Of a stretch of 64,000 nucleotides of DNA, positions 9,821 through 62,082 are shown piece by piece (the stretch's first letter is position 1; the number at the start of each line of letters is the position of its first letter). The stretch spans positions 422,090-486,089 of the forward strand of contig WFMF01000100.1 in the NCBI GenBank assembly GCA_011033025.1, written 5' to 3'. The notes below the pieces were generated by a model. That model did not search any database. It was not told the origin of the DNA and saw only the letters and a list, made by a program, of their open reading frames with translations. This DNA is from Beroe forskalii. Taxonomy: Eukaryota; Ctenophora; Nuda; Beroida; Beroidae. Position numbers and translations under genes: made by a program.

Positions 9821-9827
9821 AACTCAC

Positions 9828-24783: not shown

Positions 24784-24981
24784 AATCAACCTCCACCTAA
24801 AAGGAGTGTTATTAGTGAACAATTTATCAATAAATAGTATCTATCAAGATGAAAAGCTTCGTCCCATCTAAGAAAAGGGAATGGTTTTTATATATTAATT
24901 ACTAGTATGATATCAAAAATTCTAATTGCTTGTCAAATGCTGGTCTGTACTGTTGTTATTATTAAATCTGACAATAGTATA

Positions 24982-29970: not shown

Positions 29971-31724
29971 ATGTCACAGGGTGAACGTTCAAAGGAAAAG
30001 GGACCAGGGCCTCGGTTAGTCAATTGTTACAGGTCAATGACAAAAGTTATGGCATTGATGACATTGATGGTGATTGTAATAAAGTAGTGACAAAGTTGAA
30101 CTCAACTCCTGTCATACCAATTGACCCAAACAAAGATGATGATGATTTAACTCTTACAACAGAGTTGGAGATAAGTACAAATTTAGCTCCATGTTTCAAG
30201 TTTGCTAAATCTGCAACCACAGATGATATTGTTAATGTTGATGCAGATATTGTTGATTTTGACTCATTCAAATTGCTGACCAAAGAATCTCTCATAAAGG
30301 CTCTTTTATATTTTGTTAAAAATATTGATGATATTAACAGAGATCTTCACTCAGTTGAACTACTTCCCAAGACCAGTTTTGGCTGTCAGTGTGATATGAG
30401 CGAGGAAATGGCAACTGACCTTTCTGCTGTCTCCATTGCCTCCAGCTGCTCAACAGAAGTTGCTAGTCAAGAGAGTTTGTTGTCAGCCCCTGCCAATATT
30501 ACTGAAGAGCAGGTTAATTTGCCCACCCCTAATTTATGCAGCTCTACTGATAATTTATCTGTTGACTTGGTTGAAAATGAGAAAATTGAAACCATTGATA
30601 AACGTGTGGATGATCTATCCAAATCTATGCTGGAAATCAAATTGATGCTCAGCAAAATCATGCCAGCAGATGCTCCTTCTTTTTCCAATAATGAGCCACC
30701 CCCAGGTATTATTAATGATCCACATGTATCTACTGCTCCAAGTCATGCACCTAGTTATGCTGAAGTTGCTAGACCCATAGCACAGGCTTCAACTCAACTG
30801 AGCATTGGCAGTTCAGAAGCAAGAGTGAGTAATATTTCAGAAACTCCACCTTCATCCAAGACTAAAAATAACGAAATTCTTCTAATTGTTCCAAGTGATA
30901 ATGAAAATAAAAGTGCCCAAAGAATGTCTGATGTTAAGAAATATGTAGAGAATAAGCTTAAAGATACCCAAGTTGAGTTTATAAGGACAAACCCTAGAAG
31001 CATGAAAATTGTAATTGGATTCAAAAATAAAGCTTTGAGAGATGAAGGTAAAGATAAAATAGATATGTCTAATGTATTGGAATCCTATCATTATCACACT
31101 AAATCTGGAAGTAAGATGCTCCCCAAAATATACCTCTATAATGTTTTGGAAAATGTATTTGAAGACATTGACAGATCTGCTGACACTAACAGTGTCAGGG
31201 TGAATGAAAAGAAAACTGTCATAGATAAGATACTTGCTAAAAACCCATGTGTTGCAGAGCTTTATAACACAGGTCATACTCTAGAAGTCATATACATCAA
31301 TCAGAACACTTCGAATAACCATTATTCAGTTGGTATCAAAGTTTCCCCATCTATCAGGCTTGCAATACTCAGTAATCAGGATGGAAATCTCTACTTGGGT
31401 AATAGTAGGTATCACATCAAAGATAGATATCATGTAAAGCATTGCTATCATTGTCAGATGATTGGTCATGTATCTTCAGAATGCCCTAATAAAAACAGTA
31501 CACCTACATGCTTGTATTGCATGGGAAAGCACCGATCATCTGCATGCCAGTTCAAAAATACTGCATCAAAGCATTGCTGTGCTAGATGTCTCGCTTCTGC
31601 CCAATCTAATGATGCTGAAGGTTATAAAACTCATAATGCCAGTGATAATAACTGCCCTGTTATGGTAAGAGAAGTGTTACGCTTGAAAGAAAACACAGAG
31701 CTCCTCTCAAAAAACGTGATGTGA
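29971..31724 (+). pseudogene. LINE copy 1 ORF1, nucleic-acid-binding protein with zinc knuckles
   Basis: The main frame is open from 30024 to TGA 31722-31724 (566 codons). The natural start is ATG 29971, but one G is missing from a run near 30000 relative to copy 2, which shifts the first about 18 codons out of frame. The N-terminal half is acidic and Ser/Thr-rich. The C-terminus has gag-like knuckles (CYHCQMIGHVSSEC, CLYCMGKHRSSAC), as in ORF1 proteins of CR1/jockey elements, which coat the element RNA. Confidence 0.75.
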
Positions 31725-41942: not shown

Positions 41943-44900
41943 CAGGTAAGACTCCACATTCAGTTTGTTTTTCTTGATTGCATCTGGGCTCTCCGACTTG
42001 TTAACGTCTCTTTCGACCATCCCACTTTTGATGCTAGCTCCTGAGGCTATGCCACCGGGAACAACCCTGGAATGATCATGATATGTAGCGAAATCAGCAG
42101 TTAAATTTAAAATTATAGACTTAATCACAAAAGATAAGATAATATATAGACTCGAAGGACTCGACTCATAGAGGTTAACACATCAAATTAGTTAATTAGC
42201 TCACCCCTCGAATCTGTTTCCTGGAGTGTCCACTGAATCTGAAGTGTCCTGGAGCATTGGAGTCTCTCTGGAGTCCGGCTTGTCGTCCCTAATGTCCTGT
42301 TTCTCATCAATACTGCTGATGTCGGAGACTGGGGAGTCGTCAGGCGAAGACTTGGGCGTCTCATCCTGAAGTAGGAATGTCAAATAGTTAGATTGATATC
42401 TGAAGTAGTTACATACATAATACATATCTGTAGTAGAAGAGACATGCTCGAGATTTTGAAAATTCGTGACCATTTCGAACATATTTTCTACCATCTTCTG
42501 GTGAAGAGACAGCTTCTTTCTTAGTTTTCTCCAAAGGCTTGAGCTTGCTCTTCGTCAATCCAAACTCAGAGGTGGAGATCTCTTCTTTAACTCGCTGCGA
42601 ATGAGGATACTTTTACAAATACTTCCATCACAAGTTTCCACTGCTCTCTGAACTAGATGTCACAGAATAAAGGAGAGTAAAGTGACACAGGGTAAACTCT
42701 CACGCCTCTTGCCATTTTCTACTCACCAAGTCGTGAGGAGTTGACCTCTGCGACTTGGTCTTGTTGGAGTTTGACTTGGCAGACTTTGCTCCCGTCTTGA
42801 AATCCTCCACATGAGCAATGGCAGAGCCGAGGACTCGCAGATGGGGAATGTAGTAGATGTGGTTCTTTGACAGGTTCAGGTACTTTAGTCTGCGAGGATA
42901 GGTTTAGATACATCAATCTGAGAGGTAATAATAATAATAATAAATTAATACATTTATAACACGCTTAGACATTGTTGAATAAATATCTGTGAGGGAAATA
43001 TTCTAGCCATTCAAGCGTGACCTGAAGAAAATCCACACTACTTTGAAAACAAATATCACAGAAATCAAGTTTTAGCTCCACTAACTAAGTTATCAAATTA
43101 TCTCAAGGGATTCCACTGAATGCTAGTTCAAAATAATGTGTCTTTAAACCTCGCTTAAATATATCAATATTCGACAAACATCTTAATTCATAAGGTAACA
43201 TATTCCATACTCTTGGTCCATTATAATGAAAAGCATTAAGAGTCCTAGAGAAATTCAAGTGGACTTGGTGTCTTTAACATGAAAAAGTCATCATCCAGAC
43301 GAAGGCTCATTCTTTTAGTTTCTCTTAGGCAAAGAAGTTCTTTCAAATATTTGGGTGCCATGTTGTTGATGCATTTAAAGACAAGAAGAGCAGTTTTGAA
43401 TTGTATTCTGTAGACAACTGGAAGAAAGTGTAACTCCTTGAGGTAAGGACTGATTGGTGACCATTTCATTTTACCATTCAACTTGAAGATGAATCTAACT
43501 GCATCATTTGAAGCTTTTGAAGTTTCTGGAGATTCTTTTCAGTAACTATAGCATATGATGCATTACAGTAATCTATCATTGATAGTATATTTGCATGAAC
43601 TAGCTGTACTTTAAGGCTGTGTGTTAATCGTGAGCCAATGCGCCTGAGATTTCTCAGGTTTAGGTAACATATTTGAGAGATGTGCTTAATCTGATCATCC
43701 ATGCTAAGTCGGTGGTCAAATAAAAACCCAGGTTTTTAGTTGCTAGGACTGGGCTGACAGTTATTTCATCCACAGAATCACTGAGGCTCAACTTTTCAAT
43801 GGGACTGATGTAATAGCCAATGTCAATGAATTCTGTCTTGTCCTCATTCAGTTTAAGAAAGTTGCACATCATCCATGACTTAATCTCTGTGAAGCAATCT
43901 TTAATGACGGAAAGGTCAGGATTAGGTGAATGGACATCAAATGAGAAATAAACCTGTGTATCATCAGCATATAAGTGCACAGAGAGTCCATACTTGGATA
44001 TTATATCTTCCAAATCCTTTGTATATAGAATGAACAGTAGTGGACCCAATATAGATCCCTGTGGGACCCCAATATCAAGAATTGCTTCTTGAGATGAACT
44101 GTCATTGACTATAACTTTAAACTTCCTATCTGATAAGTATGATGAAATCCAATTAAGCACAGCACCTTTTACACCATACTTGTTTCTGAGCATTTTCAGC
44201 AGTAATGAATGATTTATAGTGTCAAAGGCAGCACTCAAGTCGAGAAGAAGTAGAACCACATTTGTCTTCTTATCAAGCATCATCATTAAGTCATTCTGGA
44301 TTTTTCAGAACTGCTGTTTCACAGCTGTGATACTTTCTGTATGCTGACTGAAAGCCTGAAAAAAGCTCATTCCCTTCAATGTGACTTATAAGTTGGTCAT
44401 GAACTATCCTTTCCAGCAGTTTGGATATATATGGAAGGTTACTTATTGGTCTATAGTTTGCAAAAACATCTGAGTCTAAGTTTTGCTTCTTGATGCTTGG
44501 TCTCACTACTGCAGTTTTGAAAGCTGAAGGGAACTTGCCAGTTTTGAGGGACTCATTGATGATGTAATGCAAAACTCGAATTAACTCAGGTAAGCATTGC
44601 TTAAAAAGCCAGACAGGCATTGCATCTAAAACACATGACTTATCAGGAAGATTCTTGGCTAGGTCAAAGAGCTTATCTTCTGATACTTCTTGGAAAACAG
44701 AAAAAGATACAGGTTTGTGATTAATAGGAGCAGAGGATGTCTGATCTAAATTGGACGATTCACTTCCAAGGTCCTCTTCAATATTTCTGTAAATTGTCTT
44801 CACCTTGCTACTGAAAAAAGTGCAAACTTGTCAGCAATAGCTAAATCATCCTTATCATTTGGAAGCTTGTTAGCCCCTGAACTCTTTATCCAAGAGCTGG

Positions 44901-47900
44901 TTCACCAAACGGTATGTACTCCTTGCATCTCCTTTAACAGATGAAAACTTTTGTCAAAAAAATCTGTTTCTAGCTTTGTCAATGATAATGGCCTTATCAA
45001 TACACTTCTCTTTGTACACTTCTTGGAGCTCAGTACTCTCAGGGTTCTTTTTTAACTTCCTTTGTGCTCTCTTTGTATCAGCTCTGGCCAGTTGACAATC
45101 TGAGTTCCACCATGCTGAACGTTTGGTGTTGAACTTTCTTGTTACTACAGGGCATGCTTGCCATAAGAATATCTTCAACGGTTGAAACAAATAGTTTCAA
45201 AGCATGGTCTACTGATTCAAAATCAGAGAAGTTAATTGGAGAACAAACAAGTCTTCTCTGAGGCGAGTAACATCAATCTTGCTGAATTCACGAACATTCT
45301 TAATTTTTGCTCTTAGGCTCTTCTGCTGACAATTCAGTTGGCAGGTTGAAACTTAAAGATAATGGTCTGATGTTGTGCCAGTTTTATTATCAACAATAAT
45401 ATCATTGATAGGAATTCCAATAGCAAGAGGCAATGAAAGAACCAAATCCAGTGTACCACCAGAGATATGTGTGGAATCATTGACATGCTGAACAAAACCT
45501 TTGCTTTCATACAATGAGATAAACTTTTGGCATACAAGTCATCAGGTTTTTCGATGTGAAAGTTAAAATCTCCACATATGATAGGATAGCCAGTTTTTGT
45601 CACCAGGTCATCAAGGTAAGTTTCAAACTCCTGTAAAAAATTATTGACTTTTGTTTCATTGTATTTCTCTTTAGATTTTGTCTGAGTTGTGCGATATATA
45701 GTGCAGAGACGAATGATGCCACTTTCCTTCTTGATAACACATTCAGCCACTTCAAATGACTTAAAGCCAACAACTTTATTCCCAACTGGTTTAACTTTTC
45801 TAAAATCGTAAACAAATGCAACACCACCTCCTCTGCCTTTTCGAGGAAAATTCAAGACATCAAAACCACATTCATGAAGTTCAGCAAATCTTGCATCCTC
45901 TTTTGATGTGAACCAGGTTTCTGTGACACAACAAACATCAATTTTACGATCAATTAACAGCTCAACACCCCTGACCTTATTGCACATTGATTGTGCATTG
46001 AAGCACTTAACTGATAACATTCCATTTGATTCTGCTCTATGTTTCCACATCACGTTTTTGAGAGGAGCTCTGTGTTTTCTTTCAAGCGTAACACTTCTCT
46101 TACCATAACAGGGCAGTTATTATCACTGGCATTATGAGTTTTATAACCTTCAGCATCATTCGATTGGGCAGAAGCGAGACATCTAGCACAGCAGTGCTTT
46201 GATGCAGTATTTTGAACTGGCATGCAGATGATCTGTGCTTTCCCACAGCAATACAAGCATGTAGGTGTACTGTTTTTATTAGGGCATTCTGAAGATACAT
46301 GACCAATCATCTGACAATGATAGCAATGCTTTACATGATATCTATCTTTGATATGATACCTACTATTACCCAAGTAGAGATTTCCATCCTGATTAGTGAG
46401 TATTGCAAGCCTGATAGATGGGGAAACTTTGATACCAACTGAATAATGGTTATTCGAAGTGTTCTGATTGATGTATATGACTTCTAGAGTATGACCTGTG
46501 TTATAAAGCTCTGCAACACATGGGTTTTTAGCAGTATCTTATCTATGACAGTTTTCTTTTCATTCACCCTGACACTGTTAGTGTCAGCAGATCAATGTCT
46601 TCAAATACATTTTCCAAAACATTATAGAGGTATATTTTGGGGAGCATCTTACTTCCAGATTTAGTGTGATAATGATAGGATTCCAATACATAAGACATAT
46701 CTATTTTATCTTTACCTTCATCTCTCAAAGCTTTATTTTTGAATCCAATTACAATTTTCATGCTTCTAGGGTTTGTCCTTATAAACTCAACTTGGGTATC
46801 TTTAAGCTTATTCTCTACATATTTCTTAACATCAGACATTCTTTGGGCACTTTTATTTTCATTATCACTTGGAACAATTAGAAGAATTTCGTTATTTTTA
46901 GTCTTGGATGAAGGTGGAGTTTCTGAAATATTACTCACTCTTGCTTCTGAACTGCCAATGCTCAGTTGAGTTGAAGCCTGTGCTATGGGTCTAGCAACTT
47001 CGGCATAACTAGGTGCATGACTTGGAGCAGTAGATACATGTGGATCATTAATAATACCTGGGGGTGGCTCATTATTGGAAAAAGAAGGAGCATCTGCTGG
47101 CATGATTTTGCTGAGCATCAATTTGATTTCCAGCATAGATTTGGATAGATCATCCACACGTTTATCAATGGTTTCAATTTTCTCATTTTCAACCAAGTCA
47201 ACAGATAAATTATCAGTAGAGCTGCATAAATTAGGGGTGGGCAAATTAACCTGCTCTTCAGTAATATTGGCAGGGGCTGACAACAAGCTCTCTTGACTAG
47301 CAACTTCTGTTGAGCAGCTGGAGGCAATGGAGACAGCAGAAAGGTCAGTTGCCATTTCCTCGCTCATATCACACTGACAGCCAAAACTGGTCTTGGGAAG
47401 TAGTTCAACTGAGTGAAGATCTCTGTTAATCATCAACATTTTTAATGAAATATAAAAGAGCCTTTTATGAGATTCTTTGGTCAGCAGTTTGAATGAGTCA
47501 AAATCAACAATATCTGCATCAACATTAACAATATCATCTGTGGTTGCAGATTTAGCAAACTTGGAAACATGGAGCTAAATTTGTACTTATCTCCAACTCT
47601 GTTGTAAGAGTTAAATCATCATCATCTTTGTTTGGGTCAATTGGTATGACAGGAGTTGAGTTCAACTTTGTCACTACTTTATTACAATCACCATCAATGT
47701 CATCAATGCCATAACTTTTGTCATTGACCTGTAACAATTGACTAACCGAGGCCCTGGTCCCCTTTTCCTTTGAACGTTCACCCTGTGACATAATGCTCCC
47801 CGGAATACCACGGGGTTATGACAGCTTAGCACAGGGGTAGTGGTTACTCAGGCTTTGGATTTCAGGTTCCTCAGTTAGTTAATTTAATATGTGTTGTGTT

Positions 47901-50900
47901 GTAAGTTAATACTGAAGAGCTGAAGCGAAGGGCAATCAGGTATCTCATTAGAGGCAGCTCTATTGTAGACTAGCACTAAATGTTTCACAGTGAATCAGCA
48001 TTTCATTCAAGGAAATCTCCACCTACTTCTTGAGGGCTCCCAGGGTTGCAAAGGTTGAGAGGTCACAGAGGTGGTTATCATCCAGATACAGCTCCTCAAG
48101 GTTAGCAAACCTCTTGAAGACAACGTTATCACTGTCAACTGAAATGGGGGTTATCACTGTCAACTGAAATGGGGGTTGACTGACGTAATTCAAATGTTTC
48201 AAAGATGTGATTATGAGTGAAATCCTGGAATGATTTGATGTTAGGTTTGGTAAGAACATCTTTTTTTGTTGTAGAGCAACTACCATGAACATGGTCTTGC
48301 GATCTGCACCTTACAAAAGGGTCTTATAAAAGTGTCTTGTAAAAGCGTCTTGTAAAAGTGTCTTGTTGAAGTGTCTTGTAAAAGCGTCATCTAAAAGTGT
48401 CTTGTAAAAGTGTCTTGTATAAGTATCTTGTGAAAGTGTCTTGTAAAAGTGTCTTGTAAAAGTGTCTCGTAAAAGTGTCCGATATAAGTGTCTTGTAAAA
48501 GTGTCTCGTAAAAGTGTCTTGTAAAAGTGTCTTGTAAAAGTGTCTCGTAAAAGTGTCAGAGATCAAAGCTAGTATTGACGATGATTTGACAAGCTTTATC
48601 AAGAGCAAAAGTAAGAAGTACCACTTGAAGAACGCTGCTTTTGATTCTTGGTATAGCAGAGTGTCGGATATCGTTGATAATAGACTTGGATTCTATAAAG
48701 ACAACCATCCACATGTCTTTGAACAAACTGAAGACAATGTCCTTGAGAGAGGGTGTCAAGGAAGAACTGAAACGTCTTCAGAAGCTTTATATCATTTGTA
48801 CTATCGATAAAGCATCTAACAACTTCGCTTTTATCTGTAAGAAGTTCTATGTTATAACTCTTCTCAAAGAACTTGGTTTTGACACTGATACATTAGAATG
48901 TACGGGTAACAAAACCTACTCTCCTCTCCCAAACGACCCTGACTTCTACGTCGAACAAATCGCTTCGACACTACGAGACAAGTACTCCATCACCATCGAC
49001 GACCAAAACATGTGTCTACCACGGCTGTTCTGGAATCCCTAAACTCCACAAGAACCCATACAAAGCACGCTTCATAGCTGAGGCGAGAAGCTGTGCTACT
49101 AAACAGCTGAACATCCTTGTTAATTGTAGTCTTAAACTCCTACGAGAATACTTCAAGAAGTATTGTCAGACAATATACAATAACAGTGGTGTCAATGTGT
49201 TCTGGAGCATAGATTCTTCTGCACAGTTTTTGAGTCACTGCAGAGCAGTGAAGCATTTAATCTCCAAATTTACGACTTTACCACTTTATATACCAATTTA
49301 GACCTTAAAGAAGTTGATGATATGATTGAGAAGTTATAGATCTGATCTTCTCTGAAAGAAACAAGTACATAAATATTTGTAAATATGATACATATAAGTG
49401 TTTCTTCGCGAAGAAGGTCTATGATGGCTACCATATTTTTGATAGAGATCAGCTCAAAGAAGCAGTTCATTTTATCATCTATCACACCTATATAGTTTTC
49501 GCAGGTAAAGTTTTTTATCCAAGTCTTAGGAATCCCCCATGGGTGGAAATTCCAGTTCCCCATCGCGGATCTCACTCTCGCTAAACGAGAGTTTAACTTC
49601 ATGCTAAATCTTTTAAAGTCCAAAAAGTTTTCCCTAGCTAAGATTCTTTCTAAAACACGACGCTACGTCGATGATCTTATCACCACTAATTATCTCAACT
49701 TTGAAGCTCTAATCAAACAAATCTATCATCCTTCTCTTGAAATGGAGAGGTCAGGTAATGACAACAAGAACGTGAACTACCTGGACCTCAATATTTCTAT
49801 CCAACCAAGCAAGGTTATTGTGTCTGTATATAACAAGACCGATGACTTTAATTTCTCTGTAGTTTCCTTTAACATTTCCACAGAGTAATATCCCTCTAGA
49901 AGTAGGCCATAATGTATTCTATAGTCAAATCCTTAGGTACGCTAACATTTGTACTGAATTAGAAACTTTCCTCTTCAATCTTAAAAAAGTTTTCAAAAAC
50001 TGATTGAAAGAGGATATAGTAACTCCAATCTTGTAGACATTATTAAACGTTGCCTTAATAAGAATAGCTTAGTCTTTCAGAAATATGCAATTTTAGATAA
50101 CAGTACAATTTTAGATCAATTTGTTTAGGTATTGGCACGCGAGGTTCTTCACATTCTGTACTGGATAGTTGTGCAGCTTGTTGCTGACCTTGAGCAACTT
50201 ACTGTATGATTAGCCTGGGACTGAATGTGGGGCTGGACAGGCAGATGCCTGTAACCTCCCATTCATTTTAACTTCCACTTTCAGGTTTTAAATAGCGTAA
50301 CATTAAGATGTTTCACCCGAATTTAATAACACTCATTGATCTTTGCCTCTACTGAACTCTTCCCCTTTTCCTCCCCTTCCCTCTAAACTGTGTTGCTCAG
50401 GAATCTGGAGTCCTGGTGGCCCAGCCCTGCAGTTGTAAGCTGTGAGGGGTACGTGGGCCGAAACCCTCCGTTTCCCTTTGTCACCTGCTGATGGGACACC
50501 TACATCGCAGATGGCAGGGAGACCTTACAACTGTAGGGTAACCGCTGATGATTCACAGTTTAGTCTCTTCCGCCTCTTATGTCAATCCTTGAATTAGAAA
50601 ATCGATGTACAGTATTTTGTTATGTTTGTAGTATACCCATACACCTTTATAGATAAGACATTGGATTGTAAAAGTGTCTTGTAAAAGTGTCTCGTAAAAG
50701 TGTCTTGTAAAAGTGTCTTGTATAAGTGTCTAGTAAAAGTGTCTTGTATAAGTGTCTAGTAAAAGTGTACCTGCCGGATATGCCATGTTGGAAGGGAGTG
50801 TCTTTATCTCGTTTGCTGTCAGAACCAGAACCCTCAACTTCTCAAGCAGCCCAATGTTAAGGATTGCACTGTGAGATACCTGGAATGGTTTGAAATGTAG

Positions 50901-52303
50901 AACTGGGTAAGCAAGCGACCATCGATCTCAATTTCAAGTCGAGCTTGTTTTACTTCTGTTATGAGTTGTATTCAGGCAAAACATGTTGTCATGGTTACCT
51001 GGTTGTAGGACAGGTCCAGGGTATCGAGGTGTGGGAATAGGCCCGGGGCTAGCTTCACTTTGCTCAGTCCGTTGAACTGGAACTGGATTTCCCTGACCAT
51101 GGGGAAGGAGGACAGAACCTGGAAAAGTGGGAATTATCAGCCCCTCGCTGGGAAAAGTGGGAATTGGGAGCTGATGGGAAAGGAGACCAGTGGGAGCTGA
51201 GAGCTGATGGGAATGCGTCACTTGTTTTGTTTCTTCACTTGTTACTACTCCACTGGAATATCAAGACAACAACCCACAGGGGTGCTATCAGATCTGCCAT
51301 TTGATATGAGCAATAGTAGTAAAAATCACAGGATCTCTTACCTCTAGTTTAAGGTTGTTTTCAGCAGCGTTGATATGGAACAAGTTCGTGAAGAGATCAA
51401 AGTCATCCTCTTTAGCAGCAGTCAGACCTGAGCAGGGGTTGGTTAGGGTGGCATCATGATGTTTTTATGAATATAAGGAGTGTTAAGTGGAACCTAAGAA
51501 CAGATGCTTCTAGAGATATAAGTTGTCCTACTGTCGTAGGTGCAACCCATGAACGAAGCAGGAAATCTCAGTACCTTGATTGGAGATGTCGATGCTGCAG
51601 ATGTCCTGGGGCTCGTCTAACTTAGCACAGTTCAGGAGATAATAGCCGTCCAGGACCTTCTCTCCGATCTGCTGTCTTTCATCCTCCTGGGAGGGGGTTG
51701 TTACCATGACAACATGTGACAACATGTTATCATAATACAACAATCAATGTATGACGTTACCTTGGGAACACATGACAACAGCAGTGCCTGTTGCTCATTA
51801 CCTGTTGTCTGTATTTACTAGTTTACCTGTTGTCTGTGTTGTATGAAGTCCTGGTCGTACAGCAGGAAACTGTGGTATCTGCGATGCTGTGCCTCCTGAT
51901 GCTCCACCAGCCATGCCCCTCCTGAGGGGGAACATTCGATAGTTGGGACTGGTAAGTGGGGAAACAGTCCAAAGAGTACTGTGGGCAGTCCGAAAACCAT
52001 TTATTCTGCACAAGGCGCGGAAGCCATTGATAAGAGGAAAGTTCATCAACAATGGCCAGCTTGGACAACTGCACTCCATTCTAAGAATTAAATGATAGCA
52101 CATAGTCAAATAAGCAAATATGGCAGAATCTAGTTGCCAAGGTAATTATTGCTGCTATGGTTACCTTTAGTTAGGAATTGCTTATTGCTGCTATGGTTAC
52201 CTTTAGTTAGGACTTGCTTCTTCCTAGTGAGGGAGTGGGCAGGGAATGCGGGAATCAAACCATCAAATGCCGGGAGGAAATCTGCGGCCTGCAGCTGACT
52301 CAT
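41943..52303 (-). CDS. XRRA1: XRRA1-like leucine-rich repeat gene, copy A (11 exons, 3' end not found)
   Basis: Exons: 52303-52201, 51921-51827, 51686-51575, 51427-51342, 51118-50999, 50879-50771, 48138-48027, 42889-42727, 42594-42496, 42365-42205, 42066-41943. Sizes of the first nine equal those of copy B. Start is ATG 52303 (MSQLQAADFLPAF). After an N-terminal region come leucine-rich repeats: DICSIDISNQGLTAAKEDDF, NLFHINAAENNLKLE, LDTLDLSYNQ, LRVLVLTANEIKTLPS, LEELYLDDNHL, LKYLNLSKNHIYYIP. A Lys/Ser-rich tail follows. The 'DISNQGL...EDDF...INAAEN' order is characteristic of XRRA1 (X-ray radiation resistance associated 1), a poorly understood LRR protein. A LINE (42929-47908) sits in the intron after exon 7 and a Penelope-like element in the intron after exon 6. 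The exon-9 donor is GA where copy B has GT. After 41943 a donor follows, but the next exon was not seen. Confidence 0.75.
43245..46053 (-). pseudogene. LINE copy 2 ORF2 (endonuclease and reverse transcriptase, frameshifted)
   Basis: Starts MMWKHRAESNG. The endonuclease (ICGDFNFH) and reverse transcriptase (YADDTQVYFSF) are readable. It keeps the frame at two homopolymers where copy 1 is broken (near 45650 and 44610) but has its own shifts near 45530, 45130, 44850, 44300, 43730 and 43500. Confidence 0.75.
46050..47791 (-). pseudogene. LINE copy 2 ORF1
   Basis: Starts MSQGERSKEKGTRASVSQLL, which shows the true N-terminus that copy 1 has lost. Knuckles CYHCQMIGHVSSEC are present, but the second (CLYC...) and the 47430-47580 and 46530-46580 stretches carry frameshifts, so the frame is broken. 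Otherwise it is equal to copy 1. Confidence 0.7.
48300..48556. repeat. GTGTCTTGTAAAA minisatellite in XRRA1-A intron, left part
   Basis: About 20 copies of the 13-14-bp unit GTGTCTTGTAAAA/GTGTCTCGTAAAA. It is cut by the Penelope-like element; the rest lies at 50665-50770. The matching array in copy B (53840-54250) is uninterrupted. Confidence 0.85.
48557..50664 (+). mobile_element. Penelope-like retroelement, degenerate
   Basis: Broken frames encode a reverse transcriptase: YIICTIDKASNNFAFICKK, LFWNPKLHKNPYKARFIAEA, a DFTTLYTNLDLKEVDDMI stretch, GIPMGG (49535), the catalytic RYVDDLITTNY box, then NKTDDFNFSVVSFN and NIPLEVGHNVFYSQILRYA. This motif order, including the 'KLHKNP' and 'DFTTLYTNL' boxes, is that of Penelope-like elements and their relatives. 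At least four frameshifts or stops occur. No GIY-YIG endonuclease was recognised in the 3' part. It lies inside a minisatellite in an XRRA1 intron. Confidence 0.7.
50665..50770. repeat. GTGTCTTGTAAAA minisatellite in XRRA1-A intron, right part
   Basis: Continuation of the array at 48300-48556 after the Penelope-like insertion. It ends directly at the exon-6 splice donor of XRRA1-A. Confidence 0.85.
51700..51713. promoter_or_regulatory. X-box-like motif GTTACCATGACAAC
   Basis: Fits the RFX X-box pattern (two half-sites around AT). It lies in an XRRA1-A intron just before exon 3. Similar words sit at about 50986 and 54466 (GTTGTCATGGTTACC) at the exon-5 donor in both copies. Confidence 0.4.
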
Positions 52304-52698
52304 TGCTCATGTCATGTCATGAAACATGGTGCTGGAGGAATAGGGATTAATAGACTGAGTGGTATATGTCATGATACAGGGTGCTAGGGGAACAGGGATT
52401 ATCAAATATCAGTTTAATTCTATATATGGCACTCTTGGTACATATACCTTTCTCGTTCAACGAATCATGGTGAATTACAAAGATTATTATATAGATTGAT
52501 TGGTATATGTAAGTTTATAGGAATCAATACACTGCATTATAACATCAATTAATGCAAGCAAAAGAACAATGAATCATTGATTTGCTTACAATGGTTTTGA
52601 GTATGGTATAATGGCTATCACACAACCTTCTTTTACTTTTAAAGTGATATGACTCCTGACATTACTTCTACTTTTCCACCTTGACTTAGTGTAACGTG

Positions 52699-52712
52699 GT
52701 TGCTATGGTAAC
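52699..52712 (+). promoter_or_regulatory. X-box GTTGCTATGGTAAC at duplicated promoter (A side)
   Basis: Near-consensus RFX X-box. It overlaps the ATG (52705) of the plus-strand signal-peptide exon and lies about 400 bases upstream of the XRRA1-A start on the other strand, so it could serve both directions. Confidence 0.5.
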
Positions 52713-52849
52713 AGTAGGTTGGCATGTGTTGGTTGTTGTGTTGGTTGCTATGCTGGGTGAAGGTGTTCAGTTTAACTGTACTACTTTGGATGTAATGAGT
52801 TCTAGTAGGAGTGTGGTAGTGGAGGGGGAGGAGGTATTCGTCACGCAAT
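52705..52849 (+). pseudogene. Duplicate first exon (signal peptide) of the fusogen-like gene
   Basis: ATG 52705, 48 codons plus one base, then a GT donor: signal peptide (VGWHVLVVVLVAMLGEG) and the start of a mature chain (VQFNCTTLDV). It is nearly identical to 56303-56447 and was copied with XRRA1. No partner exons follow in its own duplicate. It could be a dead copy or an alternative first exon spliced to the same distant exon at 58805. Confidence 0.6.
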
Positions 52850-53001
52850 GTAAGTATTAGCGTTACATTAATATACTAGATTATTATCCTAACACTCATG
52901 TTATCTTACATTATGTTACACTAACTGTAGTAATTAGACGTTAGTTTGATAAACGCTAAAAAGTTCAAAGATTTGTGACTATTTCAACTATTTCTACCAA
53001 C

Positions 53002-55717
53002 TTCCGGTGAAGAGACTGCTTCTTTCTTAGTTTTCTCCAAAGGCTTGAGCTTGCTCTTCGTCAATCCAAACTCAGAGGTGGATATCTCTTCTTTTACTCG
53101 CTGCGAATAAGGATACTGTTAGAAAAACTTTCAACACAAGTTTCCACTGGTTTTTGAATTAGATGTCTCAGAATAAAGCAGGGTAAAGTAACAAAGGGTA
53201 AACTCTCACGCCTCTTGCCATTCCTTACTCACCAAGTCGTGAGGAGTTGATCTCTGAGACTTGGTCTTGTTGGAGTTTGACTTGGCGGACTTTGCTCCCG
53301 TCTTGAAATCCTCCACATGAGCAATGGCAGAGCCAAGGACTCGCAGATGGGGAATGTAGTAGATGTGGTTCTTAGACAGGTTCAGGTACTTTAGTCTGGG
53401 GAATAGGGTTTAAAGATGCAAGAGTCTAAGAAGGAATACTGAAGGGCAGTCAGATAACTTATTAATGACAGCTGAAGTCTACACTAGCTCTAAAGCTTTC
53501 ACAGTGAATATGTTAATGAACTCAATAATTCAAGCAAATCTGCACCTACTTCTTGAGGGCTCCCAGTGTAGCGAAGGTGGAAAGGTCACAGAGATGGTTG
53601 TCATCCAGATACAGCTCCTCGAGGTTAGCAAACCTCTTGAAGACAACGTTATCACTGTCAACTGAAATGGGGGGTATCACTGTTAACTGAAATGGGGGTT
53701 GACTGACGTAATTCAAATGTTTCAAAGATGTGATTATGAGTGAAATCCTGGAATGATTTGATGTTAGGTTTGGTAAGAACATCTTTTTTTGTTGTAGAGC
53801 AACTACCATGAACATGGTCTTGCGATTTGCACCTTACAAAAGGGTCTTATAAAAGTGTCTTGTTAAAGTGTCTTGTAAAAGCGTCATGTAAAAGTGTCTT
53901 GTAAAAGTGTCTTGTTGAAGTGTCTTGTAAAAGCGTCATGTAAAAGTGTCTTGTAAAAGTGTCTTGTATAAGTATCTTGTGAAAGTGTCTTGTAAAAGTG
54001 TCTTGTAAAAGTGTCTTGTAAAAGTGTCTCGTAAAAGTGTCCGATATAAGTGTCTTGTAAGTGTCTCGTAAAAGTGTCTTGTAAAAGTGTCTTGTAAAAG
54101 TGTCTCGTAAAAGTGTCTCGTAAAAGTGTCTTGTAAAAGTGTCTCTTGTAAAAGTGTCTTGTAAAAGTGTCTCGTAAAAGTGTCTTGTAAAAGTGTCTTG
54201 TATAAGTGTCTAGTAAAAGTGTCTTGTATAAGTGTCTAGTAAAAGTGTACCTGCCGGATATGCCATGTTAGAAGGCAGTGTCTTTATCTCGTTTGCTGTC
54301 AGAACCAGCACCCTCAACTTCTCAAGCAGCCCAATGTTCAGGATGGCACTGTGAGATACCTGGAATGGTATGAAATGTAGAACTGGGTAAGCAAGCGACT
54401 CATCGACTTCAATTTCAAGTCGAGCTTGTTTTACTTCTGTTATGAGTTGTATTCAGGCAAAACATGTTGTCATGGTTACCTGATTGTAGGAGAGGTCCAA
54501 GGTGTCGAGGTGTGGGAACAGGCCAGGAGCTAACTTCACTTTGCTCAGTCCGTTGAACTGGAACTGGATTTCCCTGACCATGGGGAAGGAAGATAGAACC
54601 TGGAAAAGTGGAGAAGTGTTAGTCCTTCGCTGGGGAAAATGGAAATGATCAGCCCCTCGCTGGGAAAAGTGGGAGTTGAAAGCCGCTGGGAATGCGTCAC
54701 TTGTTTTGTTTCTTCACTTGTTACTACTCCACTGGAATATCAAGACAACAATCCACAGGGGTGCTATCAGATCTGCCATTTGATATGAGCAATAGTAGTA
54801 AAAATCACAGGATCTCTTACCTCTAGTTTAAGGTTGTTTTCAGCAGCGTTGATATGGAATAAGTTGGTGAAGAGATCAAAGTCATCTTCTTTAGCAGCAG
54901 TCAGACCTGAGCAGGGGTTGGTTAGGGTGGCATCATGATTCTATGTTTCTAGAGATGTTAGGTGCCCATGAACAAAGTAGGAACTCTCAAGTCTCAGTAC
55001 CTTGATTGGAGATGTCGATGCTGCAGATGTCCTGGGGCTCGTCTAACTTAGCACAGTTCAGGAGATAGTACCCGTCCAGAACCTTCTCTCCAATCTGCTG
55101 CCTTTCATCCTCCTGGGAGGGGGGTGTTTAGGTAAACATGACAACACATGTTATCATGACAACACATGACAACACATAAACATGGCAACATGTAACCATG
55201 ACAATAATCAACATGTTGTTACCCTGGTTGATTATATGTGTTGATTATATTTCAAATTTTCAAAAGCCTTATGGATACCCCAACGCGGGTTTCAACAAAA
55301 AAGTCTGTATTTATTACCTGTTGTCTGTGTTGTATGAAGTCCTGGTCATACAGCAGGAAACTGTGGTATCTGCGGTGCTGTGCCTCCTGATGCTCCACCA
55401 GCCATGCCCCTCCTGATGGAGGAGAACACTTGATAAGTGGGCACTAGGGGTCTATACATTCCACCAGTCTACCATGGCGGGGAAACATTTGATAAGTGGA
55501 CAGTTGATAAGTGGGCTGCTTGGGCAACTGTACTCCACACTATGTGCACACAGTCAGATCAGCTCAGATAAACCAGCATCTGGTTACCAAGGTATTTATT
55601 GTTGCTATAGTTACCTTTAGTTAGGACCTGCTTCTTCCTAGTGAGTGAGTGGGCAGGGAAGGCGGGAATCAAACCATCAAATGCCGGGAGGAAATCTGCG
55701 GCCTGCAGCTGACTCAT
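53002..55717 (-). CDS. XRRA1: XRRA1-like gene, copy B (9 exons, lacks 3' exons)
   Basis: Exons: 55717-55615, 55412-55318, 55112-55001, 54906-54821, 54599-54480, 54359-54251, 53661-53550, 53395-53233, 53100-53002. All borders are GT-AG and all phases agree (1,0,1,0,0,1,2,0,0). The protein, from MSQLQAADFLPAF, is almost the same as copy A: LRR motifs LDTLDLSYNQ, LRVLVLTANEIKTLPS, LEELYLDDNHL, LKYLNLSKNHIYYIP, then a basic Ser/Thr/Lys stretch ending in KKEAVSSPE. Downstream exons 10 and 11 are missing; the duplication stops just after the exon-9 donor. It is either a truncated copy, or its transcript reads on and uses exons 10-11 of copy A. Introns lack the two retroelements present in copy A. 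Confidence 0.75.
53840..54250. repeat. GTGTCTTGTAAAA minisatellite in XRRA1-B intron
   Basis: About 30 uninterrupted copies of the 13-14-bp unit, ending at the exon-6 donor. Same array as in copy A without the Penelope-like insertion. Confidence 0.85.
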
Positions 55718-55734
55718 TGCTCATGTCATGTCAT

Positions 55735-56095
55735 GAAACATGGTGCTAGGGAAATAGGGATTAATAGATTGAGTGGTATGTGACATGAAACATGGTGCTG
55801 CAGGAATAGGGAGTAATAGATTGAGTGGTATATGTCATGATACATGGTGCTAGGGGGAATAGGGATTAATAGACTGATGGGTATATGTCATGTGACATGG
55901 TGCTAGGGGAATAGGGATTAATAGACTGATGGGTATATGTCATGTGACATGGTGCTAGGGGAATAGGGAGTAATAGATTGAGTGGTATATGTCATGTGAC
56001 ATGGTGCTAGGGGAATAGGGGGTAATAGATTGATTGGTATATGTCATGTGACATGGTACTGGGGAAGAGCCATGAGGATTATCATATAGATTGAG
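55735..56095. repeat. ~57-bp tandem repeat in the XRRA1-B promoter
   Basis: Six or so copies of 'CATGGTGCTAGGGGAATAGG' and 'GATTAATAGACTGAGTGGTATATGTCATG' lie directly upstream of the XRRA1-B start. Copy A has only about two units at the same place (52310-52400). Confidence 0.75.
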
Positions 56096-56296
56096 TGGTA
56101 TAATATGTTAGTAAATAGGAATCAATACACTGAATTATTACATCAATTAATGCAAGCAAAAGAACAATGAATCATTGATTTGATTACAATGGTTTTGAGT
56201 ATGGTATAATGGCTATCACACAGCCTTCTTTTACTTTTGAAGTGACTTAACTCCTGACATTACTTCTACTTTTCCACCTTGACTAAGTGTAACGTG

Positions 56297-56310
56297 GTTG
56301 CTATGGTAAC
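56297..56310 (+). promoter_or_regulatory. X-box GTTGCTATGGTAAC at fusogen-like start
   Basis: Same RFX X-box as at 52699. It overlaps the start codon (56303) of the fusogen-like gene and lies about 580 bases from the divergent XRRA1-B start. Confidence 0.5.
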
Positions 56311-59300
56311 AGTGGGTTGGCATGTGTTGGTTGTTGTGTTGGTTGCTATGAAGAGTGAAGGTGTCCAGTTTAACTGTACTACATTGGATGTAATGAGTTC
56401 TAGTAGGAGTGTGGTTGTGGAGGGGGAGGAGGTATTCGTCACGCAATGTAAGTATTAGCGTAACATTGATATACTATTATTATCCTTACACTAGCCTTAT
56501 CTTTACATTATGTTACACTAAGTAACGCAATGTGAGTATTATCGTTACACTATAACGATAGCGTAAGATTAAAAGTACGTTAAAGTTACATTATCATTGC
56601 ACATATCATCATAACATTATCTTTCTACTGTTCCTACGAGATCATCTGCCATCTTAGTTGTCTAAGTCTTGTATCTTATAGTCTGGATGGTTAGTGGGCA
56701 TACCATGAAATTAGAAGGAATACTTCTGATAATACTACAGTAGTTGATATGTGTGTTTATTACTTTATTAGCTAAATTAACATCTCACATTTAATATTGA
56801 TAAAGAAATGACTTGTCACGGGTCTAAGATAACGCAGTATTCAGTCAAGAAGATGCTATCTTACTAACAGAAATGTAAAGCAAATATCTGATAAAACGCT
56901 ACTGTAGAAAAGCAACGTTCTGATCTGTGTATGAAAGCAGGAACACGAATAACTATTTCTCAAATCGTAGCTTTATTCTTTCATTTTACGTTAGCTTCAA
57001 ACTAGATCGTCAAGCACTTAACTCATTATCAAATCACTGAGTCACGTGAGTGTCACGTGATTACGTGAGGGAATAGTCAAATATCACTTGAGGAACATCA
57101 AGCAGTTGATGTAGTGATTGATTACCTGGATAGAAGACAGAAGTGGTAGAATCAATAATTCCTAGAATCTGAGATACTTAACAATAGGGGCAGGAGCTTG
57201 TAGATTAATCAATGAATACAACAGCCCATAACTTATAGGATAGATAAAAGATTTATTATTAGCATACAAACTTTTCAAATTAACAGCATGAATCTTTGTA
57301 ATGCAATCAAATCGGAAATAATAGAAAAGTAAAATCGTAGATTAGTTTTAAACATTGTCGAACTCATGCATTTCAAGATTTGAGTTTCCATCATTGACAT
57401 GCTCTATTTGCCAATAAATTAGCTAAAATTCTCTTTATCGGCAATGCAACTGCATTTTTAAATTCGTCACCGACTTGGATGATATTTTCTGGTGTTTTAC
57501 CAAGTTGTTTTACAGAAAGTCCCCCTGAACCTACCAAGTAAAGTTACTGCACATGTCTCACTATTTGATAGTTGCTATGACAACCCTTACTATTTGATTG
57601 TTGCTATGACAACCAATGTTCCTTGTTACCATGCCACCCTCTAAGTCCCTATATCCACCTCCCCTTGAAGTTGTAGATGAAGGAGTGCCTCCCCCCAGGA
57701 TTGGGTTTGTAGGCTGCTGGGCCAGGAGACACATGTTTGTAAGGCTCCAGTGCAGTGCCTCTAGGCAGAGTAGAGAGGAAGTTAGCACTGGCTACTCCAC
57801 TCTTCTTAGGGCCTGCGTAGTCCACAATGTCATAAGCCCCCGGGCCCGGGATGGGTTTAGCTTTAGGCAGGGGCATGGCGGGGGCGGATATAGCCAGGTA
57901 GTGGAGGCGGTAGAAGGGGGTGGCTTCCGAATCAGCAGGGATGTACGGGTCGTAGGACCCGGGTCCAGGGACTTGGGAAGCCTGCTCCAACTCCTTAATC
58001 TCCCTCTTTACTTTGGAGTTGAAGACGGACCCGATGGGGTTGACAGTGGTCTTTATCACTGTGTCGTTAACTTCATAACTCCCAGGGGCAGGGCAGTCCA
58101 GCTTTCCAGTGCTGAGAGGCGGGTTTCTGCTGGTCTTTGACTTGAAGCTAGCTACTGCAGAGGGAACCCCCCTCACCAGAGGAGAGGGGTTGTATTGGTT
58201 GGGGGGCGGCCCCACAATGTCCCCCTTCTTCATGCTGCATATGGGCTTGTGGAAGGAGCTGGTCACGGCCCTGTTAAAGTCGGAGCTGGGGCGGCCGTGG
58301 TTGTAGGACCCAGGGCCCACCACTGAGCCCCTGTGTCGGGGTTTGAAGCGTTTGGTGGAGGAGGCAAAGGATCCCAGCCCCTTCTTGGACCAGGAGGGTT
58401 TTCCCTCAGCAGTGCTGAGCATGGAGAGCTTGTTAGTGTAGGAGCCAGGCCCAGGGTTCTCAGTGATGTAATCGTAGTCACTGAATCGGCACTGTCTCGA
58501 GTTGAACCCTTTCTTCTCGTTGTTCACTATCACGTAAGTCTGGTACTTGGAGGGGATGGAGGGGGGCTCCCTCAGGGGCCGGGACCCTGTCAGGATCCGA
58601 CCTGTGGGGGCCCGGGCAGCCGTCATGGACTCTGCCATTTCCTGTGTGATAGGGGGCATTGAGATCATGGGGGAAAGCATGGAGTGGGGAAAGAATTTTT
58701 ATCTTGTAAAGATGTAACTTAACAAATTATAGAAAACCATTTGATCGGAGAAGATTTAATATGGGCATATCACAAAGCGATTATTAAATATCAATAACTC
58801 CCAGTTCGGTTGGAGACTGACAGATCCCTGTGCTACTTGAAAAGCATTGACGAGGGAATAACGTTACGATACATCATTAAACTGGAGAGCATTGAGCAGC
58901 ATTACAGGTACGGGGTTATTGACAGAAATAAAGTTAAAATTCAAATACCTCATTATTTACAGCAAATTTTTACAAAAATACAAAGCATTTAATTCATATC
59001 AGATTTTTGATTTTGAAATAACCATATTCTGTTCAATAAAATCAGCAAATTGAGTAAAAAATAAACGAACTTTAATTTGAGAATGTGAAGCAGGGTTATT
59101 GTTTAGCTTTATTTACTCCACTGTGTGTGAACCAATCTATCCTCCTCAATTTAATTGGGATTAATCACTCAATCGTCAGGACTGAAGACAGGTATGAGTT
59201 CGGCACACCAGTTCTGAGCCCGGTTTGTGCGTGTCGCTGCCCAATATTTTTCGATGCCTCCTGTACCAAAGATGACTGGTGTAAGGACATGAAGTCCTGC

Positions 59301-60832
59301 ATCGAGTGGTCCGACCTGTCTGGCAATGTTCAGGTGAACATGCAACAATTCAAACGATAGTATTGTGACTCATGATTGATTGATTGAAAACCCTCGTGAG
59401 GGCACCGCAATGGGTTTCTAAATAAAGTCCATAAATAGGGAGTAGGGGGCTTTCATGACATCTTTACAAAATAATTTTCCGCATAATGCCTATTAGAACA
59501 ACCATTAAACTAAATGCTGATAACATAGACCCACTGTTGCAGGGTTGTCTTTATGACACATTGAACGCCGAACAGGCCGCACCTTACTCCAGAATCTGCT
59601 GTAAGATAACAGTAACAGCTGAGTCCAGTGAAAGGTACGTTGGTTACAGAGTCTCTGAGTCCCTCCCTCAGACAGTAGCCCACATCTCAGCTACAGTGTT
59701 CCACCATGAGACAAATGAGGAACTTGCAGGGTACAAGTCACTGGCAGTGTTCAGCGCTGGTAACCAGGGCATTGCCCACTTTTCCAGACTGGAGATGTCT
59801 ATGGAAGTTGGTAATATCAATGTGAAGGAGCATGCCATGCAGGGCAGTTACTATTACAGCATCTTAGGAAACACTAGAGAGAGTAATGTTCTGGTGAGTG
59901 AAACTAGTGTCAACACTGGAAATTCACATGACACTGCCAAGCTGGGATGGCTCAAGTTAAACAGGGACAGCATTGTCCTGGATGTAGACACGAGGGTGGC
60001 ACTGCATGAGGGATTTAGTGCCCAAACATCCAGGTGCTCTAGCTCCAACCTCAACACCACATTTGTAGGAAATATTGGTAGGCCTAGTAAACAAACCTTG
60101 AAATCAAAGTTTACCAATTCCATTGACAGCGCAACACTGACCAACAGTGAAATGGTAAAAGTTAGACCACAGAAAGCTTCCATTGATCTTCAGATCACAC
60201 AAAAGAAATACAGCGAGCTAATTGTTTTCTCAGACGTGGTATCCAAAATATACAATTTCTCCGCTACACTTATGACTGACAAAAACAGCAATCGGTATCT
60301 AGATCTTGCTTTCAATGGTACTCAGGGGCTTCTCATTGGACATCTTAGCACACAGAATAAGTCGGAGAGTTTCCGTTTGTTTGTAAGCAGAAAAATGTCT
60401 CACCTTAACCACCCTGTTGTTACTAAATGTGAGGTCAATAAAACCTCATTGTGCTTTGAAACAGTGTGGAGAGTAGACAACAGTACCTCAGCAGTCTGTA
60501 ATGAAGTTGATTGTTGGACAGCTGAACTGGACAACCCACTAGATATAAATGACAATATAAACTATACCAAAGGAGAAAAGGACAGTCTATCCGATCCTAA
60601 AACATGGCTGAAGTATGCAAATCCTCTTGAGTGGATGAGCAATGGAGTAGGAAGTGTGACAGAGGGGATCATAATGGTGATAGCCATAATTGGTATTTTC
60701 ATCTTAATCTCAGTTATTGTCTGTATCGTGAGGTGTGTATGTTGCTTTTATAAATGCTGCTCATGCTGTAAGAATGCATCAAGAAGAAAATATAAAATAA
60801 GAGACTATCCCAGTCATGATTATTTTGACTGA
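56303..60832 (+). CDS. EFF-1/AFF-1-like cell-cell fusogen candidate (4 exons, 563 aa)
   Basis: Exons 56303-56447, 58805-58907, 59180-59333 and 59543-60832. All are GT-AG with phases 1, 2 and 0 in full agreement. The protein has a signal peptide (VGWHVLVVVLVAM), a long ectodomain, one transmembrane segment (GIIMVIAIIGIFILISVIV, near 510-530) and a 33-residue cysteine-rich, basic tail. The ectodomain has exactly 16 cysteines, including VCACRC, a CC pair (SRICCKI), C-x3-C type pairs and NEVDCW, plus about eight N-glycosylation sequons. A Trp-containing stem (NPLEWM) precedes the membrane. The nematode fusogens EFF-1 and AFF-1 are class II-like type I proteins of similar length with 16 conserved ectodomain cysteines, which is the basis for the call. 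HAP2/GCS1 is longer and less fitting. STPG1 lies inside intron 1 on the other strand. The gene starts head-to-head with XRRA1-B. Without a structural comparison this remains a candidate. Confidence 0.55.
56448..57560. other. First intron of the fusogen-like gene, AT-rich part
   Basis: No exon seen. Two CACGTGA words (TCACGTGAGTGTCACGTGA) stand at about 57040-57060. An AT-rich spacer runs to the 3' end of STPG1. Confidence 0.4.
57571..57613. promoter_or_regulatory. Two X-box-like motifs downstream of STPG1
   Basis: GTTGCTATGACAAC occurs at 57571-57584 and again at 57600-57613, followed by TTGTTACCATGCCACC. They lie in intron 1 of the fusogen-like gene, just 3' of STPG1. Confidence 0.45.
57649..58680 (-). 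CDS. STPG1: STPG1 sperm-tail PG-rich repeat protein (343 aa, single exon)
   Basis: ATG 58680 to TAG near 57649, one exon. The protein has the sperm-tail PG-rich (STPG/SHIPPO) repeats: ENPGPGSY, VVGPGSYN, CPAPGSYEV, VPGPGSYDP, IPGPGAYDI, SPGPAAYKP, spaced 30-50 residues apart. N-terminal 'NEKKGFNS' and C-terminal 'PGPGAYDIVDYAGPKK' and 'SFIYNFKGRWI' match the order and length of STPG1 (334 aa in human), a ciliary/flagellar microtubule-associated protein. The gene is more GC-rich than its surroundings. It lies entirely inside intron 1 of the plus-strand fusogen-like gene. A second in-frame ATG at about 58662 could serve as start. Confidence 0.85.
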   Translation of the reverse strand: MLSPMISMPPITQEMAESMTAARAPTGRILTGSRPLREPPSIPSKYQTYVIVNNEKKGFNSRQCRFSDYDYITENPGPGSYTNKLSMLSTAEGKPSWSKKGLGSFASSTKRFKPRHRGSVVGPGSYNHGRPSSDFNRAVTSSFHKPICSMKKGDIVGPPPNQYNPSPLVRGVPSAVASFKSKTSRNPPLSTGKLDCPAPGSYEVNDTVIKTTVNPIGSVFNSKVKREIKELEQASQVPGPGSYDPYIPADSEATPFYRLHYLAISAPAMPLPKAKPIPGPGAYDIVDYAGPKKSGVASANFLSTLPRGTALEPYKHVSPGPAAYKPNPGGRHSFIYNFKGRWI

Positions 60833-60938
60833 AAATGAACCTGTGTGTTGAGATTCTTGTGTATAAATTGTCATTTCTACAAACCATAAGGGCATTTAAT
60901 TCACATTTTGATATACAGTCTATCTTTGATAGTTGTTT

Positions 60939-62082
60939 TCACATATAGGGGAACAGCCTTGTTTCCAAAGGCCAGATAAGTTCTTGGTCTAGCACAACAT
61001 CTAATGGATGAGTATATTTTGCCAAATAGTTAGGAACTCCAAGCAATTCCTTATCACTGATGACATGTTCTAATATCTCCTCAACTGAAAGTAAATCAAA
61101 TTGTTAACTAGAAATAAAATTATATGCCTTTACAGATCATGAGATATAAGTAAGTATACTATAATAATAAGTGTACTCAGCTATGAATGCAATGTTATGC
61201 AATATACTAACATTAGTAATACTATCAAACCATTATTGATTTGTATAGAATATGTAGGTAATATTATTGGTTATTATTGACTAATTACAGGACTATTGAT
61301 ATAGATCTAATATCTTACCAACAATAAGCTGAGTTTGGGATGTTACAACTGATTCACACCGTGCTTTGTAGTTCACTTTTGGAACATTCTGATTCACATA
61401 TTCTGACAATGACACAATCTGCTTGATGACATTGACAATAACCTAGGGGTAATCTCAACATAAAAGCATTACAAGTTTTGATATCAATTATTCTTACGAT
61501 TATAAGCATTTGTCACATTGATTAGTGGTGGAAGAACAACACCAGTACATTGGTTTTATTATCAAATGTGATAATATGAGAAAACAATAAATAGGTTTTA
61601 AAAATATTAGGCTGTGTTTTCACCTGTGCAATAGAATCACTTGTCTCATGTTTCTGCTCCAGAGGACGAATGGGTAAGCAAATATCAGCCCATCCATGTT
61701 GGAACAATCGAGATGGCACATTTTCAGAAAATGATAGGATTTTGGTTTCAGTAAAGGAACTAAAAGTATTTCCATTGATCATTTCTGACAGAAGTAACAT
61801 TATAATTTCCTGAGAAGTTTCAAGACATATCAATGCATGTAGATTATACATCATCAAAACTCCTGTTGGGGCCTCTTGAGACAACTGAGTTTGTCCATTC
61901 TTCAAGAATTTGTCAAAGGCTGTTCCAACAGCTTTCTTATCTTTCTTTTCCAGACCAGATGCCATCTTTGCCACAATGAAAATCCTGTGAATCATTCCCT
62001 TCTTATTTCCAGCCCTGAGCTTTTCCATTGCTACATCAAGCAAAGAAAGGCGAGTAGATTCATAGGCATCAATTTGCGACAT
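60939..62082 (-). CDS. TEX47: TEX47-like protein (3 exons, 242 aa)
   Basis: Exons 62082-61624 (ATG, MSQIDAYEST), 61442-61319 and 61084-60939 (stop TGA). Introns are GT-AG with phases 0 and 1, all consistent. Motifs: IHRIFIVAKMASG, then APTGVLMMYNLHALICLETS, KILSFSENVPSRLF and LPIRPLEQ. A C-terminal LGVPNYLAKYTHPLDVVLD ends in WPLETRLFP. The order 'PTG-L-Y----ICLE-S...NIPSRLF' and the size match TEX47 (testis-expressed 47), whose fold resembles BLUF-type domains. Its function is unknown. An upstream start in the same frame at 62127 uses a non-ATG codon, so 62082 is preferred. The 3' ends of this gene and the fusogen-like gene converge 107 bases apart. Confidence 0.6.

Follow-up and report, generated by a model that had tools for sequence, protein, structure and literature searches.

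The DNA analysed here is a 64,000-nucleotide stretch of the Beroe forskalii genome (contig WFMF01000100.1, positions 422,090 to 486,089), referred to below as the window. On its plus strand, at 56303–60832, lies a gene of four exons separated by GT..AG introns, which encodes a protein of 563 residues and closes at a TGA codon at 60830–60832. The exons measure 145, 103, 154 and 1290 nt, which sets the intron phases at 1, 2 and 0 (Table 1). The spliced protein matches the Pfam family EFF-AFF (PF14884) with an E-value of 7.3e-33 and 114.3 bits (cut-off 25), covering positions 27–466 of the 467 positions of the profile, and the next two Pfam matches are at chance level (E 0.066 and 0.47). The frame around exon 4 alone (59462–60832) reaches 82.8 bits with an E-value of 2.6e-23, and it is the addition of exons 1 to 3 that lifts the score to 114.3 bits. 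A preliminary description had proposed a member of the EFF-1/AFF-1 (FF) family of fusogens on the grounds of length, topology and cysteine count. Membership in this family now appears nearly certain from the Pfam match together with the match to the solved EFF-1A described below, and the earlier proposal is thus borne out.

The exon borders were examined by a splice-aware profile alignment over 53001–61500, with the window gene left out of the profile, which was made from the paralogue on contig C66 (see below), residues 99–605 of worm EFF-1 and models of three further paralogues, themselves made without the window gene. This leave-one-out alignment scored 137.5 bits and placed exactly the three introns of the preliminary description, so that its four-exon model stands with coordinates, phases and protein length unchanged. 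Fifty shuffles in blocks of three gave a mean of 26.5 bits with a standard deviation of 2.5 and a maximum of 31.9; the reverse strand gave 28.1 bits, and 12 control searches, on both strands of six other tiles of the window, did not exceed 30.4 bits. An earlier alignment with stiffer gap and intron costs, and with a profile of the C66 paralogue and EFF-1 only, scored 39.4 bits and recovered intron 2 alone; the costs were loosened after that run and before the 137.5-bit result was obtained. With a score so far above chance, exons 2 to 4 are confirmed as real, and a chance assembly of these three exons is ruled out by the same alignment. As many as 4813 combinations of the allowed candidate splice sites are free of stops, and an open model is therefore no evidence by itself. 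When the splice sites were ranked with a hand-set weight table based on the splice consensus, the donor of exon 1 fell in the top 0.51% of the 3725 GT sites, and the other two donors came within the top 0.83% and 2.1%. Acceptor strength is unremarkable, with 7.8%, 8.9% and 13% of the 3913 AG sites scoring equally well. At the DNA level, exon 4 occurs at a single place in the genome.

A protein search of the genome also returned a second copy of exon 1 upstream of the gene. It belongs to a tandem segmental duplication that pairs 50666–51733 with 54146–55157 and 52314–52924 with 55937–56521. The two copies of the exon differ at 7 of 145 bases, with four changed codons being synonymous and two nonsynonymous, and the length, the frame and the donor of the exon are all preserved. 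In the flanks, 17 of 226 columns differ on the 5′ side and 10 of 76 in the intron. Small as these numbers are, the differences between the copies would suit a coding exon, and the two copies may serve as alternative first exons. The opposite strand of the duplicated segments (50666–52924 and 54146–56521) includes a portion of what, by eye, resembles a leucine-rich-repeat gene; a frame of 80 residues at 54213–54452 matches no Pfam family.

Searched against the Protein Data Bank (PDB) with phmmer, the spliced protein finds Caenorhabditis elegans EFF-1A in four entries (4CYL, 4OJC, 4OJD and 4OJE). The best E-value is 9.1e-14, with residues 67–550 aligned to 99–605 of EFF-1A and residues 1–66 outside the alignment, and the first noise match follows at E 0.95. 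A profile of five Beroe proteins of the family gives E-values of 2.8e-53 (4CYL, chain 63–585) and 2.4e-50 (4OJC, chain 43–540) for EFF-1A, the next unrelated chain being at E 0.11. A class II fold is predicted for the ectodomain by homology to this solved structure. The preliminary description had suggested profile or sequence searches against EFF-1/AFF-1 and HAP2. These retrieved EFF-AFF and EFF-1A, whereas HAP2-GCS1 is absent from the Pfam matches (E up to 1) and from the PDB matches (E up to 10), and no unrelated receptor family is found among the Pfam matches of the spliced protein. HAP2/GCS1 would share the class II fold with the window protein through EFF-1 (PMC8784728), yet no HAP2 chain is among the PDB matches of the five-protein profile (E up to 10). 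With C. elegans AFF-1 the likeness is that of the Pfam family EFF-AFF, by family name alone. The gene adds one more member to a family already known, in an animal of interest, and is not a new type of system.

The protein has one strong hydrophobic segment near the C-terminal end and is probably a type I membrane protein. A signal peptide is likely, as judged by eye, and is encoded in exon 1, which itself is thinly backed by homology. There are 24 cysteines in total, 16 of them N-terminal to the membrane segment and eight at 528–543, where C528 sits within the membrane segment. The ectodomain set includes C99-A-C101-R-C103 and the pair C153-C154, and eight N-X-S/T sites are found in the ectodomain. 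Two tryptophans occur in the stem (TWLKYANPLEW). The 16 ectodomain cysteines with VCACRC and CC, the many glycosylation sites, the Trp-bearing stem and the short cysteine-rich tail had all been listed in the preliminary description, and each was recovered on counting.

Compared with EFF-1A, the window protein aligns over nearly the full length and shares the CxCxC and CC motifs, LGW, D..SN, N-P-x-x-W and the membrane anchor near the C-terminal end; worm EFF-1 has CICEC where the window protein has CACRC. When the five Beroe proteins are aligned with EFF-1 in six rows, 14 ectodomain cysteines of the window protein can be set against the EFF-1 fragment, and 11 of them coincide with EFF-1 cysteines, with C111 being one place off. 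A three-row alignment likewise matches 11 of 14, but some of the pairings differ. In the six-row alignment, C525 and C528 of EFF-1 have no counterpart in the window protein, and C430 and C458 of the window protein have none in EFF-1. Among the five Beroe proteins, 13 of the 14 cysteines are invariant, and the N-P-x-x-W before the membrane is kept in all six rows. The cysteine pattern of the ectodomain matches that of EFF-1 in large part, not residue for residue.

Table 1. Features of the FF gene and its upstream duplicate in the window (positions are those of the window; residues are those of the spliced protein).
Feature	Position	Strand	Description
Exon 1 duplicate	52705..52849	+	coding-like; possible second first exon; in tandem segmental duplication
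Exon 1	56303..56447	+	145 nt; start codon, likely signal peptide (~1–20, by eye), C25; open frame
Intron 1	56448..58804	+	2.36 kb; donor GTAAGT at 56448; placed to the base by leave-one-out splice-aware alignment
Exon 2	58805..58907	+	103 nt; carries C58 (LCY)
Intron 2	58908..59179	+	placed to the base by leave-one-out splice-aware alignment
Exon 3	59180..59333	+	154 nt; carries YxF and CxCxC signature
CACRC, residues 99–103	59226..59240	+	CxCxC common to five Beroe proteins and EFF-1 (6/6 rows)
Intron 3	59334..59542	+	placed to the base by leave-one-out splice-aware alignment
Exon 4	59543..60832	+	1290 nt including stop codon; bulk of ectodomain, then stem, membrane segment and tail
Juxtamembrane NPLEW, residues 494–498	60620..60634	+	N, P and W also in EFF-1 (NPAHW) and four paralogues (6/6 rows)
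Membrane-spanning segment, residues ~509–531	60665..60733	+	Kyte-Doolittle mean up to 3.41 over 19 residues
Short cytoplasmic tail	60734..60829	+	seven cysteines between 532 and 543

The window gene is not alone in the genome. The Pfam EFF-AFF profile, searched over the whole genome, gives at least eight matches on five contigs, namely C66, C3 (the window gene), C291, C453 and C465, which points to at least five FF genes. One match on C465 carries stops, presumably where the search reads through introns. A genome search with the window protein itself returned C3, C66, C453 and C465 together with the exon 1 duplicate; C291 was not returned. Against the Pfam profile the paralogues reach 209.9 bits (C291), 173.7 (C465), 157.4 (C453, in two stretches) and 151.1 (C66, as a single frame). 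The models of C291, C465 and C453 are approximate, with the C-terminal end trimmed and the N-terminal end incomplete, and were built with family profiles, so that their scores lean upwards; single exons of these loci exceed the Pfam cut-off unaided. In gene structure the paralogues differ from the window gene: C66 lies mostly in one frame of 613 codons, and the models of C291, C453 and C465 have 8–13 introns. Across the five Beroe proteins and EFF-1, any two sequences are 18–35% identical, and the window protein is 20–24% identical to its paralogues. The only supported group in a six-sequence tree is C453 with C465 (98/96). The C453 paralogue (L012 1357–3363, minus strand) continues in frame after its membrane segment with a tail of several hundred residues, Asn/Ser-rich and with proline runs, in contrast to the short tail of the window protein.

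We hold with good confidence that the locus is a ctenophore nuclear gene for a type I membrane FF protein, which probably merges cells as worm EFF-1 does. The fusion activity taken by itself is, by analogy with EFF-1, somewhat less secure and still rather probable. EFF-1 and AFF-1 are needed on both membranes, and the final state of EFF-1 is a trimer of class II shape (PMC8784728), reached from a protein that is monomeric before fusion (PMC4050280). By the same mechanism, the FF protein would be present on both partner cells, the ectodomains would meet in trans and refold into trimeric, class II-shaped hairpins, and the two bilayers would then be drawn together by the stem and the membrane anchors. 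This mechanism is the best guess for the window protein because the cysteines, the ectodomain length, the N-P-x-x-W motif and the anchor are kept.

As for the place of use, multinucleate muscle would come first, and then the syncytial nerve net or epithelia, an uncertain order. In the tentacles of Pleurobrachia, myoblasts align and fuse into multinucleate muscle (PMC3502136), and ctenophore muscle cells are described as multinucleate and up to centimetres long (PMC5095125). The nerve net of Mnemiopsis is a syncytium of unsettled origin (PMC7617566). As an EFF-1/AFF-1 relative and one of at least five such genes, the window gene would be a natural candidate for the fused muscle and nerve cells.

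Several observations weigh against this reading. Exon 1 is the weak point of the model: it is worth only 1.5 bits of homology (137.5 bits with it versus 136.0 without), and most of its support comes from its splice signal and from its duplicate. Over 464 aligned columns, identity to EFF-1 is as low as 18%, and the window gene scores lowest of the five against the family profile (114 bits versus 151–210). The tree leaves both the window gene and EFF-1 unplaced where long branches meet, the terminal branch of the window gene being 2.85 changes per column as drawn. Given the lowest family-profile score and this low identity, fusion activity may have drifted.

The same divergence would suit a protein that belongs to the family by descent and no longer fuses cells, acting instead in surface adhesion or signalling, or in the scission of intracellular membranes as worm AFF-1 also does. 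AFF-1 is required for membrane trafficking and tube growth in the worm (PMC5931541). We regard this alternative as unlikely, since the ectodomain length, most of the cysteines, the N-P-x-x-W motif and the anchor are all kept, which suggests an intact machine. It is also conceivable, and in our judgement improbable, that the gene serves the fusion of sperm and egg rather than of somatic cells. HAP2 is unmatched in the Beroe genome, and two neighbours belong to families named after sperm tail or testis: the antisense gene in intron 1 (SHIPPO, sperm-tail) and the downstream gene (TEX47, testis-expressed). The HAP2 search, however, was equally silent in all 14 control genomes and is thus not proof of absence, the names of neighbouring genes are no evidence for co-expression, and the literature describes FF proteins as fusogens of somatic cells (PMC8784728).

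EFF-1 has its fold in common with class II viral proteins (PMC8784728), and the window contains two LINE-like elements at other places; both observations would be in keeping with a recent capture of a viral class II envelope protein by the host. Such an origin is nevertheless very improbable. Pfam at E up to 1 gives no viral class II family, with HCMV_UL139 (E 0.47, chance level) as the lone viral match; there is no viral class II chain among the PDB matches; and introns are present in the gene, which also has four divergent paralogues. None of 68 pattern matches in viral contigs was confirmed as a relative, which is weak evidence given the narrow patterns, and the same holds for 61 pattern matches in prokaryotes, none of them confirmed. 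No viral element tied to the gene was seen. Just as hard to believe is a chance model or a pseudogene put together from unrelated open frames. The slight contribution of exon 1 and the large number of stop-free splice combinations leave room for it, whereas the leave-one-out alignment picks exactly this one combination, at 137.5 bits versus 31.9 for the best of the 50 shuffles, and the chosen exons contain no stop.

FF proteins outside nematodes, including one ctenophore member, have been reported already (PMC4723337). Among the matches listed in the open-licence literature, none describes a family of FF genes in Beroe, which is no proof that no such description exists. The available parts of the literature on ctenophore muscle and nerve nets name no fusogen for the multinucleate muscle or the syncytial nerve net. 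The nerve-net study asks whether neurons remain connected after dividing or whether their neurites extend and fuse, and in the portion of its text at hand EFF-1 enters only through a cited worm paper (PMC7617566). A review of hydrozoan giant axons proposes fusogens, and two ctenophore reviews cite fusogen papers (PMC10730927, PMC9816575); in the parts available, the former names no such gene (PMC8987731) and the latter two name no ctenophore gene. At least five defined FF genes make the question of the muscle and nerve-net fusogen testable by expression and knock-down, and a comparison of members as diverged as these would reveal the essential parts of the EFF-1 machine. Two wider consequences can be put forward only tentatively. 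Somatic fusion driven by class II proteins might date to the animal ancestor instead of being a nematode speciality; and the genes might offer, with a similarly modest chance, a molecular handle on whether fusion or incomplete division gives rise to the ctenophore net.

Around the FF gene, a SHIPPO-repeat (sperm-tail PG-rich repeat) gene at 57649–58698 on the minus strand consists of one long frame and is nested, in antisense orientation, within intron 1, and a TEX47-like gene lies downstream, also on the minus strand. Nested intronic genes are frequent in the ctenophore Hormiphora, where 2357 were counted (PMC8527503). The LINE-like non-LTR retrotransposon copies at 29985–34526 (plus strand) and 43660–47574 (minus strand) are very similar by eye and opposite in orientation; they carry frames that appear zinc-knuckle-like and endonuclease-like by eye, and one frame matches RVT_1. 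The minus strand at 20253–24785 encodes, in a single frame of 1510 codons, an ABC transporter that has two membrane stretches and two ATPase stretches. Two repeat stretches are open in frame, one at 39766–41481 on the plus strand (SKVARQLTTLLLSC...) and one of GTGTCTTGTAAAA-type at 53838–54248.

Elsewhere in the assembly, contig C1134 is mitochondrial, with 13,339 bp and 17.5% GC, and COX1 at its start is open with TGA read as Trp. The published mitochondrial genomes of Beroe forskalii measure 13,357, 13,339 and 13,338 bp at 17.3% GC (PMC6991124), and C1134 was compared with them by G+C content and layout, not by letters. No tRNA was found on C1134 by ARAGORN; for the published genomes, tRNAscan-SE gave no tRNAs and ARWEN none that were conserved, and ATP6 and ATP8 are reported as missing (PMC6991124). 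Nine further frames on C1134 were scanned. Three of them have no Pfam match, and six match COX3, cytochrome b, NADHdh, COX2 and, twice, Proton_antipo_M. The published genomes have two orphan frames after ND5, around 7,800 and 9,300 bp (PMC6991124). The published start of URF2 was not reproduced from an ATG on C1134. Two of the unmatched frames, at 7546–8649 and 8929–9867 (L015), follow the second Proton_antipo_M frame and occupy the positions where Beroe forskalii has URF1 and URF2.

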